Below, in pieces: positions 17,430 to 24,481 of a stretch of DNA of 39,355 nt; position 1 is the first letter of the stretch; the number at the start of each line of letters is the position of its first letter. A program made the position numbers and the translations under genes. The notes below the pieces were generated by a model. The model was not told where the DNA came from, did no database searches, and was given only the letters and a program-made list of their open reading frames with translations. Source of the stretch: Pseudomonadota bacterium (GTDB taxonomy: Bacteria > Vulcanimicrobiota > Vulcanimicrobiia > Eremiobacterales > Eremiobacteraceae); NCBI GenBank assembly GCA_021325335.1, contig JAJPHJ010000036.1, positions 1 through 39,355 on the forward strand, read 5' to 3'.

Positions 17430-18284
17430 TCACTCGCTCGCCGCCAAGTTGCCGGCGACCGCCGGTTGACGCAAGCATCCGCGTGCAAGCTCGCGGCAGC
17501 GGCTTGCAACGGCTTCGATAGCCTCGACCGAATCGCGCGCTGCTGCGGCGCACTCCACAAGGGCGCTGCCCACGATCACGCCATCCGCTTGCGCTGCGAG
17601 CTGCCGCACGGCGCGCACGTGAGAAACGCCGAAGCCCACCACGATCGGCGTCGCGGTGGCCCTGCGGAGCAGTTCGATCTGGGCCCGGATCTCGCCGATG
17701 CCGGCGTGCGTTCCGGTGACGCCCGCCCGGCTTACCACATAGACGAAACCGCTCGCCGCTTGGGCGATCCTGACCGCGCGGTCTGGCGGGGTGGTCGGGG
17801 ACACGAGCATGGGCACGACAAGGCCGTACCGGGCGAAGGCCGAGCGCAGCGGTCCCGATTCCTCTAGCGGCACGTCGGGCACGATCACTCCACACAGACC
17901 GCAGGCTGCGAACGATTGCGCCGTGCTCTCAAGACCGTGGGTGAGGAGCACGTTATAGTAGGTGAACCCCAGGACGGGGATCTCACCTAGCCGCTTGCCG
18001 AGATCCCGCACCAGTCGCAACGCCCCGGCAAGCGACATGCCGCCCGCAAGGGCGCGCGCGGAAGCAGACGCGATCGCGGGGCCGTCGGCGAGCGGATCCG
18101 AGAACGGGATGCCGAGCTCGAGCAGGTCCGCTCCACCGCGCGCGACGGCGGCGAGCAGCTCCTTTGAGACGAGCGGATTGGGATCGCCAGCCACGAGGAA
18201 CGGCAAAAACGCGGCGCGTCCTTGCCGCGAACAGCGCGAGAATGCTGCGCTGACCAGCGCCTCGGGACCGAAGCTCGGCCTCAT
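17430..18284 (-). CDS. trpA: Tryptophan synthase alpha chain
   Basis: The product has 284 residues and cleaves indole-3-glycerol phosphate to indole inside the alpha2-beta2 complex with TrpB. The catalytic acids are E56 and D67 within LLELGIPFSDPLADGPA. The TIM-barrel phosphate site is formed by the VVGFGVSHVRAV and GVIVGSALVE segments near the C-terminus. The ATG at 18284 shares one base with the trpB stop (TGATG), so translation is coupled, which suits an obligate complex. A longer upstream frame is non-homologous. Confidence 0.97.
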   Translation of the reverse strand: MRPSFGPEALVSAAFSRCSRQGRAAFLPFLVAGDPNPLVSKELLAAVARGGADLLELGIPFSDPLADGPAIASASARALAGGMSLAGALRLVRDLGKRLGEIPVLGFTYYNVLLTHGLESTAQSFAACGLCGVIVPDVPLEESGPLRSAFARYGLVVPMLVSPTTPPDRAVRIAQAASGFVYVVSRAGVTGTHAGIGEIRAQIELLRRATATPIVVGFGVSHVRAVRQLAAQADGVIVGSALVECAAAARDSVEAIEAVASRCRELARGCLRQPAVAGNLAASE

Positions 18285-19477
18285 CAGCGTAGCGCCGGCG
18301 CACCGAGTGCGAGCCGCGCGACATCCTTGTCGCCCCGACCCGAGCAGATGACGAGGACGAGCGCCTCCGGGTCGAGCTTTTGACGGATCTTCCGGGAGAA
18401 TGCGATGGCGTGCGCCGACTCGAGCGCCGGCACGATGCCTTCGGCGCGCGCCAAGTCGCAAAAGGCGTCGAGCGCCTCGTCGTCGCTCACCGCGCCGTAG
18501 CGCACGCGACCGCTGCTCTTGAGGTGCGCGTGCTCGGGTCCCACTCCCGGATAGTCGAGGCCGGCGGACACGGAGTGCGTCGCCCCGATCTGGCCTTCCT
18601 CGTCCATGAGAACGAACGTCCGAGCACCGTGCAAGACCCCAATTGATCCCGCGCTGAGGCTGGCTGCGTGATCGCCGATGCGATCCAAGCCGACGCCACC
18701 CGCTTCGACGCCCCACAGACCGACCTGCTGGTCCTCGAGAAATGCCGCGAAGGCCCCGATCGCATTGCTGCCCCCGCCGACGCAGGCGACCACGTGCTCC
18801 GGCAGCCGCCCGAACTGCTCGAGGCACTGCGCCCTGGCCTCATCGCCGATGGTCCGCGCGAAGCCGCGCACCAAGGTCGGGTACGGATGTGCTCCGACCG
18901 CAGACCCGACCACGTAGGCTGTGTGCTCGGCGGTTGCGGCATAATCCCGGAACGCTTCGTTCGTCGCATCCTTGAGCGTGCGGGCGCCGGCATCCACCGC
19001 TTTGACCGTCGCGCCGAGCAATCGCATGAGGTACACGTTGAGCGCCTGGCGTTCCATATCGGCGCTTCCCATGTAGACCTCGACGGGCAGCCGTAGGAGC
19101 GCTCCCGCCGTCGCGGTCGCGACGCCATGCTGGCCCGCACCCGTCTCGGCGATCAGGCGCACCTTGTTCATGCGTTTCGCGAGCAAGCCTTGCCCGAGCG
19201 CGTTGAGGATCTTGTGCGCACCGGTATGGTTGCAATCCTCACGTTTGAGCACGAGCCGCGGGCCCGAGCTTTCCGCGTCCAAGTTGCGCAAGGCCGTCAG
19301 CGGCGTGGGGCGTCCGACGTAGTCGCGAAGCACGAGCCGGTACTCTTCCCAAAAAGCTGGATCGCCGAACGCGTCGTCCATAGCCGTCTCGAGCGCGCGC
19401 AAAGGTTCGACGAGGACCTCAGGCACGAACCGGCCGCCGAATTCGCCGAAATAACCGCGCGAAGAGTGGCCGTTCAC
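18284..19477 (-). CDS. trpB: Tryptophan synthase beta chain
   Basis: The product has 397 residues; this PLP enzyme condenses indole with serine to tryptophan. The Schiff-base lysine is K89 in NHTGAHKILNA, the catalytic glutamate E111 is in ETGAGQHGVA, and the PLP phosphate loop is GGGSNAIG. The N-terminal GYFGEFGGRFVPE marks the TrpB1 type that partners TrpA. The start is a GTG at 19477 overlapping the trpF stop (GTGA). Confidence 0.98.
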   Translation of the reverse strand: MNGHSSRGYFGEFGGRFVPEVLVEPLRALETAMDDAFGDPAFWEEYRLVLRDYVGRPTPLTALRNLDAESSGPRLVLKREDCNHTGAHKILNALGQGLLAKRMNKVRLIAETGAGQHGVATATAGALLRLPVEVYMGSADMERQALNVYLMRLLGATVKAVDAGARTLKDATNEAFRDYAATAEHTAYVVGSAVGAHPYPTLVRGFARTIGDEARAQCLEQFGRLPEHVVACVGGGSNAIGAFAAFLEDQQVGLWGVEAGGVGLDRIGDHAASLSAGSIGVLHGARTFVLMDEEGQIGATHSVSAGLDYPGVGPEHAHLKSSGRVRYGAVSDDEALDAFCDLARAEGIVPALESAHAIAFSRKIRQKLDPEALVLVICSGRGDKDVARLALGAPALR

Positions 19478-20118
19478 GCGCTCAACCTTCGCGCAGCCGC
19501 GGCTGCCCGGACGAAACCGCGCACGAGCTCCGCATCCTTGCGACCGCCCCGCTCGACGGCCGATCGCACGTCGACCGCCGCGGGTCCAACGGCAGATATC
19601 GCGTCACCGACGTTCTCGGCCGTCAGACCGCCCGCGAGGATGCACGGCAATGGACTACGCTGCGCGATACGGCTCGCGAGGCGCACGTCGACTCGCAAGC
19701 CCGTGCCCCCGACCCGCTCGCCGTCGCGCGAGTCGATGAGAATAGCGACTGCGCGCGCGTCGCGCAAGAATGCCGCTGTGGGGGGGGTCGCTTCGCGTGC
19801 GCGGTAGTCAATGCCCAGGGTTGCGATCGTCGGCAGCTCGAAAGATCCGCGAAACGCACCGGTCTCGCTTCCGCAGAACTGGAGCATATCCAACCGGCAT
19901 CCGTCGATCGCGCGGTGGACGAACTGCCAAGGTTGGTCGGCGAAAACGCCGACGCGGGTCACGAACGCAGGTATCGCCGTCGCGATCTCCCTAGCGGCCG
20001 CGAGTTCGAGCTTGGCAGGCCCGCCCGCGAAGATAAAGCCCAGCGCATCGGCGCCTTCCGCAACGCAGATCGCGGCATCTTGGGCGGTACGGATCCCGCA
20101 GATCTTCACCGCGAACAT
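19474..20118 (-). CDS. trpF: Phosphoribosylanthranilate isomerase
   Basis: The product has 214 residues and performs the Amadori rearrangement of phosphoribosylanthranilate. It starts VKICGIRT with the catalytic cysteine C7, and later shows LGFIFAGGP, LDMLQFCG and ILAGGLTAENVGDA, the phosphate-binding end of the barrel. The ATG at 20118 lies inside the 3' end of trpC with GGAG seven bases upstream, giving a 13-base overlap. TrpC and TrpF are separate proteins here, not fused as in enteric bacteria. Confidence 0.95.
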   Translation of the reverse strand: MFAVKICGIRTAQDAAICVAEGADALGFIFAGGPAKLELAAAREIATAIPAFVTRVGVFADQPWQFVHRAIDGCRLDMLQFCGSETGAFRGSFELPTIATLGIDYRAREATPPTAAFLRDARAVAILIDSRDGERVGGTGLRVDVRLASRIAQRSPLPCILAGGLTAENVGDAISAVGPAAVDVRSAVERGGRKDAELVRGFVRAAAAARRLSA

Positions 20119-20900
20119 ACGGTGCTCCGCAACGAGCGGACTGCGCCGGCGCGATCGGAAGCGCGCATGAACCACTCTCCGACGAGCACCGCGTGCGCCC
20201 CGCAGGTTGCAATGCGAGCGATGTCCGCGGCGTTGCGATAGCCGCTTTCGGCGACGATCGTGGGGCCCATGGGGATGGACCGGCAGACGCGCGGCGCGAC
20301 TTCGAGGTCGACCGCGAAGGTGGTCAGATCGCGGTTGTTCAGCCCGATGATCCGCGCCCCGGCTTCCAGCGCACGACGCGCTTGCGCCTCGTCGTGCGCC
20401 TCGACCATGGCCGCCATCCCGAGCGCGTGCGCGAGCTCGAGCAGCGAACGCAATGGAGCCGCTTCCAAGATGGCGGCGATGAGCAGCACGGCGTCCGCGC
20501 CGAACGCCGCCGCTTTCCAGACCTGATATTCATCGAGGAAAAAATCTTTGCACAGCACCGGCAGACCGCAGGCTCGGCGCGCCGCGCCCAGATCCCGGAA
20601 GCTGCCGCGAAAACGCCGGGGCTCGGTCAGCACCGACAACGCGGCCGCTCCTGCGCGCTCGAACTCACTCGCGGCGTGCGCGGGATCGCAATGCAAAGCG
20701 ATCGCGCCGGCGGAGGGAGAAGACCGCTTGATCTCGGCGATCACCGCGATGTCGTCCCCGGTGCGCAACGCTCCTGCGAAGTCGCGATGATCCTTCCGAT
20801 CGAGTGCCATCTCCTGGAGCGCGACGAGTGGCAGGAACGTCCGCTCGGCCGCGATATCCTGCCGGCGGTCCGTGACGATCGCCGCAAGAAGGCCGATCAC
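20106..20900 (-). CDS. trpC: Indole-3-glycerol phosphate synthase
   Basis: The product has 264 residues; it is a TIM barrel that closes the indole ring. The signature AEIKRSSPSAG (E56, K58) is present, followed by CKDFFLDEYQV with the catalytic Lys, the EAHDEAQARRAL segment, IGLNNRDLTTF and AESGYRNAADI. The start is a GTG at 20900 overlapping the trpD stop (GTGA), so it is translationally coupled to trpD. The 3' end overlaps trpF. Confidence 0.97.
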   Translation of the reverse strand: MIGLLAAIVTDRRQDIAAERTFLPLVALQEMALDRKDHRDFAGALRTGDDIAVIAEIKRSSPSAGAIALHCDPAHAASEFERAGAAALSVLTEPRRFRGSFRDLGAARRACGLPVLCKDFFLDEYQVWKAAAFGADAVLLIAAILEAAPLRSLLELAHALGMAAMVEAHDEAQARRALEAGARIIGLNNRDLTTFAVDLEVAPRVCRSIPMGPTIVAESGYRNAADIARIATCGAHAVLVGEWFMRASDRAGAVRSLRSTVCSR

Positions 20901-21928
20901 CGGTTCGTCGCCTCGACGAGCGCGTCGAGCTTGGCGCGCGCCGCGCCGCTGTCAATGGACGCCGCGGCGATGGCGAGACCTTCGGCCAGGCCAGCGCTGC
21001 GCCCGGCGAGGGTAAGCCCCAGCGCCGCGTTGAGCAGCACCACATCGCGTCGCGGGCCGGGCTGCCCCTCCAGCACGTCGCAGAGGATCCGCGCATTGGC
21101 GTCGGCGCCGCCCCCCGCGAGCGCCTCGACGGGCGCCTTGCGCAAGCCCCACGCTTCAGGCTCGATCGTGTATTCGGAGAATCCTTTGCCGGTCCACTCG
21201 ATGACGCGTGTCGGCGAACAGACTGAGACTTCATCCATCCCGTCGTCGGACCGCACGACCGCGGCGCGCTCGCAACCTTGCGCGGCGAGCGCTCGAGCCA
21301 TGGTCTTCATGGCAGCCCGCTCGGCGATGCCCACCAGCTGCCGTTTCGGACGCGCCGGATTGATGAGGGGTCCCACCAGGTTGAAGACGGTGCGCACGCC
21401 GATCTCGCTGCGCAGCGCCGCGACGCGGCGCATGGCGGGATGGTACGCTTGAGCGAACAAAAACGCGACCCCGTCGCGTTCCAATCCGGCTGCGCTTTTC
21501 TCCGGACTTGCGTCGATACGCACGCCTAACGCCTGCATCACGTCGGCGCTGCCGCACTGTCCGTGGACCGCGCGGTTGCCATGCTTGGCGACGCTCACCC
21601 CCGCCCCCGCCACGACGAACGCGACGGCGGTCGAGATGTTGAAGGTCCCGGATCCGTCTCCACCGGTGCCGCACACGTCCAGCTCCGGCCGCAGCGCGAC
21701 GGGGATGCTCTTCGCCCGAGCCTGCAAGGCGCGCGCCGCCCCGACGATCTCTTCGAGTGATTCGCCTTTAGCCGCGAGCGCCACGAGCAACGCGGCGGTC
21801 TGCGCGGGCGTGGTCGCGCCATCGGTCATGGCAGCGACGAGCGCTTCGGTTTCCGCGCTCGAGAGCGCGGCGCCGGCGATGCAGCGACGGATGAAGGGAC
21901 GAAGCTCGTACGGCTGGCTCGCGATCAT
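20897..21928 (-). CDS. trpD: Anthranilate phosphoribosyltransferase
   Basis: The product has 343 residues and joins anthranilate to PRPP. The PRPP-binding motif CGTGGDG is at 86-92, followed by FNIST, KHGNR at 115-119 and a second acidic site DDGMDE for magnesium. FNLVGPLINPARP is the family's conserved hinge region. The ATG at 21928 overlaps the trpG stop (ATGA); a longer upstream frame overlaps trpG and is not homologous. TrpD is free and not fused to TrpG. Confidence 0.97.
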   Translation of the reverse strand: MIASQPYELRPFIRRCIAGAALSSAETEALVAAMTDGATTPAQTAALLVALAAKGESLEEIVGAARALQARAKSIPVALRPELDVCGTGGDGSGTFNISTAVAFVVAGAGVSVAKHGNRAVHGQCGSADVMQALGVRIDASPEKSAAGLERDGVAFLFAQAYHPAMRRVAALRSEIGVRTVFNLVGPLINPARPKRQLVGIAERAAMKTMARALAAQGCERAAVVRSDDGMDEVSVCSPTRVIEWTGKGFSEYTIEPEAWGLRKAPVEALAGGGADANARILCDVLEGQPGPRRDVVLLNAALGLTLAGRSAGLAEGLAIAAASIDSGAARAKLDALVEATNR

Positions 21929-22506
21929 GCGGCTGCCGCGATCTCGAGAAAGTTGGCGACGAGACGCATGCCCAAGCGCGTGAGCACCGATTCCGGATGG
22001 AACTGCACGCCGAACGTGGGATGCGTCGCATGACGCACCGCCATGACGCACCCGTCGCGGCTATGCGCCGCGACGCGCAGTTCCGTCCGTCCGATGCTGC
22101 CGCCGTCCACGACGAGCGAGTGATAGCGTGTGGCGACGAACTCGCTCGGAATGCCGGCGAAAAGCGCACTGCCGTCGTGCCGGATGCGCGAAACTTTCCC
22201 GTGGACGAGCGACGGTGCCGCACAGACCGACGCGCCGAACGCCACGCCGACCGCCTGATGCCCGAGACACACGCCCAAAATCGCGAGCCGACCGGAGAAG
22301 CGCTGCACGACCCCGACGCAGCAGCCCGCCTGTTCGGGTCGGCCGGGCCCGGGGGAGATGATGACTGCTGCGGGGGGCCGCAACTCCAGCCTGGGCGCGA
22401 CGCGGCCATCGTTGCGGACGACCTCGATCTGAGCGCCCAGTCCGCCCAACATCTGCACGAGATTGAACGTGAACGAGCCGTAGTTGTCGATGACGAGCAC
22501 GCGCAT
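21925..22506 (-). CDS. trpG: Anthranilate synthase glutamine amidotransferase subunit
   Basis: The product has 193 residues, a class I glutamine amidotransferase delivering ammonia to TrpE. The nucleophile is C80 in GVCLGHQA, with H170 and E172 in QFHPES completing the triad. The N-terminus reads VLVIDNYGSFTFNLVQ and the oxyanion strand is SPGPGRPEQAG. The ATG at 22506 shares one base with the trpE stop (TGATG). In many bacteria this subunit also serves p-aminobenzoate synthase; nothing here decides that. Confidence 0.96.
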   Translation of the reverse strand: MRVLVIDNYGSFTFNLVQMLGGLGAQIEVVRNDGRVAPRLELRPPAAVIISPGPGRPEQAGCCVGVVQRFSGRLAILGVCLGHQAVGVAFGASVCAAPSLVHGKVSRIRHDGSALFAGIPSEFVATRYHSLVVDGGSIGRTELRVAAHSRDGCVMAVRHATHPTFGVQFHPESVLTRLGMRLVANFLEIAAAA

Positions 22507-23909
22507 CACGCGATCTTTTCGAATGCCGTGGCGCCGAGCGCCTGTGCCACGGCGCGCGCCTTCGCGACGCACTCGGCGTGCTCGCGCGCGGCGATAGAGT
22601 CGGCGACCACGCCGGCACCGGCGCGTATCTGAACGCGTCCGTCGCGCATGACCGCGCTGCGCAAGATCAGGCACGTGTCGAGGGAACCGTCGAAGCCCGC
22701 GCGGATGATCGCGCCGCCGTAATACCCGCGACGACATCCCTCGAGTTCGGCGATAAGCTCCATTGCGCGGATCTTCGGAGCTCCGGTCACCGTCCCGGCA
22801 GGGAACGTCGCCGCGAGGAGATCGAAGGCATCCGCATCGGACCGCAGCGACCCGCGCACGTCTGAGACCAGATGCATGACGTGGCTGAAGCGCTCGACGT
22901 CCATGAACGTGTCGAGCCGCACGCTTCCGTAGCGACACACGCGCCCCAGGTCGTTGCGGCCCAAGTCCACGAGCATCACATGCTCCGCGCGTTCCTTCGG
23001 GTCGCTTCGAAGGCCGCGCGCTACCGCCGGTTCGGCCGGAGGAGACGATGGTCGTGCGCGCGTTCCCGCCAGGGGCCGCACGCGTGCGTCTGTGCCTCGC
23101 AACGTGCACAGCATTTCTGGGGAGGCTCCGAAAAGCGTGGCCTCCGGCAACTGCATGAAGAAACGATACGGCGCTGGATTGATCGTGCGAAGACGCCCAT
23201 AGACAGATAACGGGTCGCTCGCGTATGGCGCCTCCCAGCCTTGGGAGAGCACCACCTGATACGCGTCGCCCGCGCGGATCGCTTCCTGGGCGCGCGCCAC
23301 CATCGCGGCGAACGGCATGCGCGCAGGCAGCGCCGCAAGCACGACCACGGGCGCGTCAACGGAGGGCGCGAATCGCGCGCTCGCAAGCGCGGCGACGATC
23401 TGCGCCTCAAAGCCGCTTGCTTCCGCCGTCACAATCGTGGCGGTTCCACTTTCCGCATGGAGATTGACAACGGCTTGGGGCACGACAAGGCGCAGATCGG
23501 GCGGCGCACCGGCTCCCGGCGCGCTTTGTGGGAGCCGCTCGAGATATCCGGCAAACTCGAAGGCCGCGACCCCGAACAAGCCGAGGGGAGAGTCCCGCTC
23601 AAGACGGTCGGGCCGGCCGGCTTGCAACAGAAACCGGCAGGCATCAAGCACGTGCCGCGCCTCGAAGCGCTCTTCGCGCTGCGCCACGGTCACGAGCACG
23701 GAAGCGCCGCTCGCCACGAGTTGGCCTGCGCAGCCGAACGCGAGGATCGACCCGCGTCCAGTCTCACCGTTGGCAAGCGCACCTTCGAAGAGCATTGCCG
23801 GTGCCGGTAAGCGGTTGCGGAGATGACCAAACGCGGCGACCGGGTCGATCGCGCCCATAGCAAGGGTCGTCTGCTTGACGGTGGTGAGCGCGCGAGGGTT
23901 TGCGAGCAC
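22506..23909 (-). CDS. trpE: Anthranilate synthase component I
   Basis: The product has 467 residues and makes anthranilate from chorismate. The C-terminal catalytic domain shows DLGRNDLGRV, MHLVSDVRG, and PAGTVTGAPKIRAMELI, the TrpE-like form rather than the PGGSITGAPK of p-aminobenzoate synthases. The N-terminal domain is less typical: where feedback-regulated enzymes have an LLES-like motif, this one has MLFEGALANGETG. The start is a GTG at 23909 with GGAGG seven bases upstream; that ribosome site begins right after the T-run of the attenuator, so termination and trpE translation are physically coupled. First structural gene of trpEGDCFBA. Confidence 0.94.
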   Translation of the reverse strand: MLANPRALTTVKQTTLAMGAIDPVAAFGHLRNRLPAPAMLFEGALANGETGRGSILAFGCAGQLVASGASVLVTVAQREERFEARHVLDACRFLLQAGRPDRLERDSPLGLFGVAAFEFAGYLERLPQSAPGAGAPPDLRLVVPQAVVNLHAESGTATIVTAEASGFEAQIVAALASARFAPSVDAPVVVLAALPARMPFAAMVARAQEAIRAGDAYQVVLSQGWEAPYASDPLSVYGRLRTINPAPYRFFMQLPEATLFGASPEMLCTLRGTDARVRPLAGTRARPSSPPAEPAVARGLRSDPKERAEHVMLVDLGRNDLGRVCRYGSVRLDTFMDVERFSHVMHLVSDVRGSLRSDADAFDLLAATFPAGTVTGAPKIRAMELIAELEGCRRGYYGGAIIRAGFDGSLDTCLILRSAVMRDGRVQIRAGAGVVADSIAAREHAECVAKARAVAQALGATAFEKIA

Positions 23910-23923
23910 GTGATAGCCTCCAG

Positions 23924-23961
23924 AAAAAAAAAGAAGCGGGCCTCTTTACGAAGAGGCCCGC
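23924..23961 (-). terminator. Intrinsic terminator / trp attenuator hairpin
   Basis: A perfect 11-bp stem (GCGGGCCTCTT at 23961-23951 pairing with AAGAGGCCCGC at 23946-23936, minus-strand order) with a CGTA loop is followed by TTC and nine T residues. It is the strongest intrinsic terminator in the window. It is also the only one between rplQ and trpE, so it can end ribosomal-operon transcripts as well as act as the trp attenuator. Confidence 0.93.
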
Positions 23962-23997
23962 CGTTGCCGGGTGAGTAGTGCTAAGGTCAGCGACGCA

Positions 23998-24063
23998 TCA
24001 GCACTCCACCGCGCGCAGCGGAACGGGCGCGATCTGCCACCAGCACTTCCCAAAACGATGCAT
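23998..24063 (-). CDS. trpL: trp leader peptide with tandem Trp codons
   Basis: The product is a 21-residue peptide, beginning MHRFGKCWWQIAPV and ending in PLRAVEC. The Trp codons are residues 8 and 9 (TGG TGG at 24042-24037). The stop lies 36 bases before the terminator stem. An in-frame ATG at 24096 would extend the N-terminus by 11 residues (including Tyr-Tyr); neither start has a good SD, as is common for weakly translated leaders. Two adjacent codons for a rare amino acid in a 21-codon frame, directly before a terminator and trpE, make chance unlikely. The role is inferred to be regulatory translation, not a functional peptide. Confidence 0.85.
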   Translation of the reverse strand: MHRFGKCWWQIAPVPLRAVEC

Positions 24064-24127
24064 AGGACGAGCGTAGTACGGCGTCGCGGGATGCATTCCT
24101 GCGGATTTTTTCAGCAAGGACTGGGAC

Positions 24128-24481
24128 TTACTGAAGCAGTTCGATCTGAGCCAGCGGCGCCGCATCGCCCTTGCGGATCCGGGTCCGGACGATGCGCGTG
24201 TAGCCGCCGCTGCGCCCGGCCAGGCTGGGCGCGATCACTTCGAAGAGCTTCTTGACGACATCATCTGAGTTCAGATACGAGGCAACCATGCGCCGGCTGT
24301 GCAGATCGCCTTTTTTGGCGCGCGTGATCATCCGCGAGGTCACCTTGGAAACCTCCTTGGCGCGGGTGACCGTCGTTTCGATCGTGCCGTGCAGCAGCAA
24401 CGCGGTGGTCAGATTGCGCAGCATGGAGCGGCGGTGATCGTCGTTGCGACCCAAGCGCTTGGCCGCTTTTTGGTGACGCAT
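24128..24481 (-). CDS. rplQ: 50S ribosomal protein L17
   Basis: The product has 117 residues, the usual length. It begins MRHQKAAKRLGRNDDHRRSM, with the conserved LLLHGTIETTVTRAKEV segment; L17 binds 23S rRNA near the exit tunnel. It is the last gene of the ribosomal superoperon, four bases after rpoA. No terminator follows until the trp attenuator some 170 bases downstream. Confidence 0.98.
   Translation of the reverse strand: MRHQKAAKRLGRNDDHRRSMLRNLTTALLLHGTIETTVTRAKEVSKVTSRMITRAKKGDLHSRRMVASYLNSDDVVKKLFEVIAPSLAGRSGGYTRIVRTRIRKGDAAPLAQIELLQ

Follow-up and report, generated by a model that had tools for sequence, protein, structure and literature searches.

The window, the whole 39,355-nucleotide stretch analysed, carries ahead of its trp operon what we interpret, with a probability of about 0.9, as a ribosome-mediated transcription attenuator of trpEGDCFBA. 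A short ORF with tandem Trp codons precedes an intrinsic terminator, the arrangement is conserved together with the trp genes among relatives, and a segment just 3′ of the Trp codons has an alternative pairing with the terminator 5′ arm. Attenuation had been proposed in the initial annotation, and both the conservation in relatives and the antiterminator pairing in all 11 complete leaders support that interpretation at the sequence level. From these features we infer stalling, folding kinetics and a response to tryptophan. A ribosome would translate the leader peptide behind the advancing RNA polymerase; with charged tRNA-Trp scarce, it would stall at the two TGG codons, so that segment 2, just 3′, could pair with segment 3, the terminator 5′ arm, letting transcription enter trpE. 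With tryptophan plentiful, the ribosome would reach the stop codon, segment 2 would be held in other pairings, which in most relatives involve segment 1, leaving the GC-rich hairpin to form and to end transcription before trpE.

Leader architecture and the trp locus

The window belongs to a metagenome-assembled genome whose nearest named relative, 'Candidatus Eremiobacteria', places it in the phylum Eremiobacterota. The gene order on the minus strand is rpoA-rplQ-leader-trpEGDCFBA. Profile searches place trpE, trpG, trpD, trpC, trpF, trpB and trpA, in this order, downstream of the leader and rpoA and rpsM upstream of it; the genes for ribosomal proteins L16, L2 and L3 lie still further upstream on the same strand, so the S10-spc-alpha cluster runs into the trp region without a change of strand. 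The name rplQ comes from the sequence and from its position after rpoA, not from a profile. Read along the minus strand from 24128 to 23909, the end of rplQ is followed by 64 nt, the leader ORF, 36 nt, the hairpin, TTC, nine T, CT, GGAGG, 7 nt and the GTG of trpE. The features are as follows.

24128..24481, minus strand: rplQ, gene for ribosomal protein L17, which closes the alpha operon and precedes the leader; ORF with homologues in 14 of 14 family genomes
23998..24063, minus strand: trp leader peptide ORF of 21 codons, MHRFGKCWWQIAPVPLRAVEC and stop, ATG at 24063 and TGA at 24000-23998; read directly
24037..24042, minus strand: tandem Trp codons TGG TGG, codons 8-9 (segment 1, regulatory codons); read directly
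24016..24028, minus strand: segment 2, GCCCGTTCCGCTG, within the leader ORF, able to pair with the terminator 5′ arm; pairing computation
23971..24010, minus strand: apical hairpin across the stop codon of the leader, GGTGGAGTGCT...AGCACTACTCAC, which the stalled-state fold places in the predicted antiterminator rod
23951..23966, minus strand: segment 3, CAAC plus the terminator 5′ arm, GGCGGGCCTCTT; direct reading and pairing computation
23936..23961, minus strand: intrinsic terminator hairpin of 11 perfect pairs, GCGGGCCTCTT-CGTA-AAGAGGCCCGC, loop CGTA; read directly
23924..23932, minus strand: run of nine T (U tract); read directly
23917..23921, minus strand: GGAGG, ribosome-binding site of trpE; read directly
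22506..23909, minus strand: trpE, GTG start at 23909, predicted first structural gene controlled; profile match
21925..22506, minus strand: trpG, start approximate; profile match in the C-terminal part of ORF 21925-23109
20897..22051, minus strand: trpD, given by its ORF limits, the actual start probably lying inside them; profile match
20106..20900, minus strand: trpC; profile match
19474..20175, minus strand: trpF, ORF limits; profile match
18284..19477, minus strand: trpB; profile match
17430..18827, minus strand: trpA, start approximate; profile match in the C-terminal part of its ORF

Direct reading confirms to the base the 21-codon ORF with TGG TGG at codons 8-9 that the initial annotation described, together with the 36 nt between its stop and a perfect 11-bp hairpin, the nine T, the GGAGG and the GTG of trpE, whose identity the profile match secures. 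The leader frame stays open further upstream, with an in-frame ATG at 24096, and reaches back into rplQ; no candidate start in the window has a convincing Shine-Dalgarno site. Of the possible starts, the one giving 21 codons is the likeliest, the alternatives lying upstream in frame.

Conservation among relatives

The family set comprised 14 genomes from nine genera; ten of these genomes, the window's own included, have a TrpE match. In all ten, some 130-200 nt upstream of trpE, there is a mini-ORF in which 2-4 Trp codons stand in a row, and a GC-rich hairpin with a U tract comes after it; examples of the peptides are MKTHAQAWWWWASARRLAHVQALT (genome G012), MILAKRVDSWWWAGARLVCHVRALT (G008) and MNPYLARRWWRTCPLRKPAVRR (G001). 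Strict automatic criteria (a W-rich mini-ORF plus an intrinsic terminator) were passed by 7 of 10 family genomes and, applied to dinucleotide shuffles, returned 0 such arrangements in 60 per genome region; the other three genomes fail the strict filter, with the arrangement visible on inspection. Leaders were counted in 12 genomes, as 11 complete ones (the window and ten relatives) and one truncated (G007, where the contig ends inside a WWW leader). In G013 (locus L119), which has no TrpE match anywhere in its assembly, the trp operon starts at trpD, and a WW leader (MIRRTTRCTGLWWRPCLGARLSFR) with its hairpin lies directly before that gene, confirmed there by profile.

The leader moves with the trp genes. 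Three genomes (G004, G009 and G010) have a trp operon unlinked from rplQ; there the leader stays with trp and none lies behind rplQ. Two others (G003 and G005; L118 and L124) have no leader after rplQ and no trpE or trpD match above cut-off; all that the trpD profile picks up there is distant, phosphorylase-like and far below its threshold. Because it accompanies trp where the operon is unlinked and is missing where trp is missing, the leader belongs to the trp operon and not to rplQ. Retention of the hairpin by relatives that had lost the Trp codons or the reading frame, named in the initial annotation as the pattern that would speak against attenuation, was looked for, and the opposite was found. 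As a separate observation, G003 and G005 are near-complete genomes, and the joint absence of leader and operon marks them as possible tryptophan auxotrophs.

Beyond the family, the pattern TGGTGG-GCCCG-GCGGGC was tried as a phylum-wide distribution map and rejected: it found the known leaders amid a flood of chance matches, a reversed-pattern control behaving similarly outside the family. Upstream of trpE in another family of the class we saw occasional Trp-rich mini-ORFs (L052 in G086, L113 in G079, L059 in G085, and L097/L102 in G056/G055), with peptides MRLVLSWWWQVSVRSGR, MQFFAASWWRPADRNNR and MIVR(L/I)AAW(Y/N)RWHWL(L/P)GVQR and with GGCGGCC-like terminators; most genomes of that family have no Trp-rich mini-ORF before trpE. 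A TATTCT or GATAAT box just before the ATG of L052 and L113 suggests leaderless transcripts. Such a start, with a −10 box just before the ATG, is plausible for these two loci and was discarded as inconsistent within the window's family.

Placement behind rplQ

Nine of the 12 leaders lie directly behind rplQ. In G001 and G013 the leader ATG and the rplQ stop share bases (ATGA), and in G011 and G012 the ATG comes 1 nt after the stop (ATGA or TAATATG at L122, L119, L120 and L121), spacings that suggest translational coupling; most family leaders have no clear Shine-Dalgarno site. At these spacings there is no room for a terminator between rplQ and the leader, so ribosomal-protein transcripts not stopped earlier must enter the attenuator. 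The attenuator may serve as the terminator of these transcripts, and ribosomes from rplQ may start the leader. In the window, a second terminator-like hairpin (TCGCGGGATGCATTCCTGCGG ATTTTTT) lies on the plus strand at 24084-24104, over the gap after rplQ; it is weak and may be chance.

A possible further layer, compatible with attenuation, is that the attenuator doubles as the S10-spc-alpha terminator, the only one ending the rplQ operon. The trp genes would then form a Trp-controlled extension having at most a weak promoter to themselves, rplQ ribosomes would translate the leader, and tryptophan synthesis would be a starvation-triggered lengthening of the operon. The frequent position directly after rplQ, the four abutting or overlapping starts and a consensus scan that found no promoter in the rplQ-trpE gap all favour this reading. 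Against it, consensus scanning has little power in this phylum and promoters may lie inside rplQ; moreover, the three genomes with unlinked trp must have a promoter of their own, yet the same scan finds no consensus promoter there either. We regard this extension as tentative, and rather less probable than its absence.

Alternative pairing and the computed switch

Each complete leader has a GCCCG(C/T) segment (GCTCGCC in G013) complementary to GCGGGC of the terminator 5′ arm, and segment 2 starts 5-8 nt 3′ of the last Trp codon in 10 of 11 leaders (15 nt in G013). RNAalifold on a MAFFT alignment recovers the terminator only, because the spacing between segments varies; we therefore tested the pairing by duplex and masked-ribosome folding instead. 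Segment 2 pairs with segment 3 more strongly than shuffled segments do (Stouffer z −4.7 over 11 leaders, an upper bound on significance, since the leaders share ancestry and their independence is overstated); significance belongs to the set, the window's own leader alone giving p 0.56. Each segment also pairs better with the arm of its own genome than with those of other genomes (permutation p about 0.01, row and column effects removed). In some genomes the helix reaches past its core by differing sequences, such as GCAAAC:GTTTGC in G001, GTTTG:CAAGC in G008 and GGCTTGCG:CGCAAGTC in G012, as expected if selection acts on the pairing.

To represent a stalled ribosome, the transcript was ended at the terminator loop and masked from its 5′ end to a point 13 nt beyond where the first Trp codon begins. 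Under these conditions the probability of the segment 2:segment 3 pairing is 0.72-1.00 in 11 of 11 leaders; E. coli trpL, put through the same procedure, gives the antiterminator at 0.62 stalled and 0.06 free, as expected. At equilibrium the full transcript favours the terminator in most leaders, as it does for E. coli trpL, and in several relatives the antiterminator is favoured with no ribosome stalled, as long as segment 4 has yet to be transcribed. We infer that the outcome depends on folding during transcription. Leaders of the WWW and WWWW type show a clear 1:2 hairpin between the Trp codons (GGTGGGC) and segment 2 (GCCCGCC); it is weaker in the WW leaders, the window's among them, whose run ends TGG-C. 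For the window this hairpin is unsupported by folding (0.00-0.11), and the answer varies with the assumed 5′ end of the RNA.

The antiterminator drawn in the initial annotation, TCCGCTG (24022-24016) with CGGCGGG (23963-23957), lies where it was placed and can form, two G-U pairs included. Its logic carries over to all 11 complete leaders, but TCCGCTG overlaps the conserved segment 2 only in part, the conserved centre being GCCCG(T/C) directly 3′ of the Trp codons (24028-24024 and the adjacent CCG). The companion proposal, that AGTGCTGGT over the Trp codons pairs with ACCTTAGCACT (23987-23977), is possible in the window across a 2-nt bulge and appears in the fold of the whole window leader, but it is specific to the window and no family-wide feature. 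Within the same stretch, AGCACT (23977-23982) has two candidate AGTGCT partners, one over the Trp codons and one at the stop codon (24005-24000), the latter pairing giving the apical hairpin of the antiterminator; this choice makes a window-specific switch possible.

Variable peptide ends and weak start signals give some room to a trigger other than stalling for want of charged tRNA-Trp, such as a TnaC-like nascent peptide that senses tryptophan and arrests the ribosome, or a protein or RNA that binds the leader. We consider this improbable. The peptides are not conserved outside the Trp run and share no C-terminal residues of the kind an arrest peptide would need, and the distance from the Trp codons to segment 2 is near-fixed in 10 of 11 leaders. 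At gathering score, no Rfam leader family (trp leader, T-box or others) matches the window or 12 relative loci; a relaxed E-value returns only a sub-threshold sRNA match (BjrC68) over the terminator and chance-level matches. More improbable still is that the hairpin merely terminates the alpha operon and the Trp-rich ORF arose by chance: the hairpin does follow rplQ, with no other same-strand terminator-like site before trpE, yet every family leader has a run of WW to WWWW codons, leader and hairpin go with trp when it leaves rplQ and are absent where trp is absent, and shuffles give 0. A TRAP-regulated leader of the Bacillus type, with an array of GAG/UAG triplets, is unlikely because the Trp-codon run is present.

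Comparison with known systems

The attenuator proposed here resembles E. coli trpL (K-12 MG1655, b1265) in its tandem Trp codons, short leader ORF, U tract and first gene trpE, and in an antiterminator and GC-rich terminator that exclude each other and behave alike in our folding pipeline. It differs in having a dissimilar leader sequence, no clear Shine-Dalgarno site and a position after rplQ. In the complementary triplet the strand sense is reversed: GCCCG / GCGGG / CCCGC here, against ACGGGC / GCCCGCC / GCGGGC in E. coli. The E. coli segment 2 is located beyond the stop codon, whereas the family leaders carry it within the ORF, 8-33 nt ahead of the stop, so in most leaders a ribosome at the stop codon would have segments 1 and 2 uncovered in its wake. 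Sinorhizobium meliloti trpL is likewise a Trp attenuator leader with Trp codons, encoding a WWW leader peptide. That leader peptide (peTrpL) is reported to act in trans (PMC7298713). For Corynebacterium and Streptomyces, PMC1262725 describes classical trp attenuators in which UGG is repeated two or three times, terminators are GC-rich and carry poly-U, and conserved complementary triples lie within antiterminator and terminator; the window is alike in all three respects and differs in phylum and sequence.

Our literature searches returned no report of attenuation in Eremiobacterota, nor of trp genes behind rplQ. What is new is this member and where it sits; the principle is not, because attenuators with UGG repeats and three mutually complementary segments have already been described outside Proteobacteria (PMC1262725). 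Ribosome-mediated trp attenuation would thereby extend to the uncultured phylum Eremiobacterota, in a form that no Rfam model recognises, and the 11 complete leaders can serve as queries for further searching. With leaders placed directly behind rplQ, and in some genomes overlapping it, one can test whether a biosynthetic operon runs as the controlled tail of a ribosomal-protein operon.
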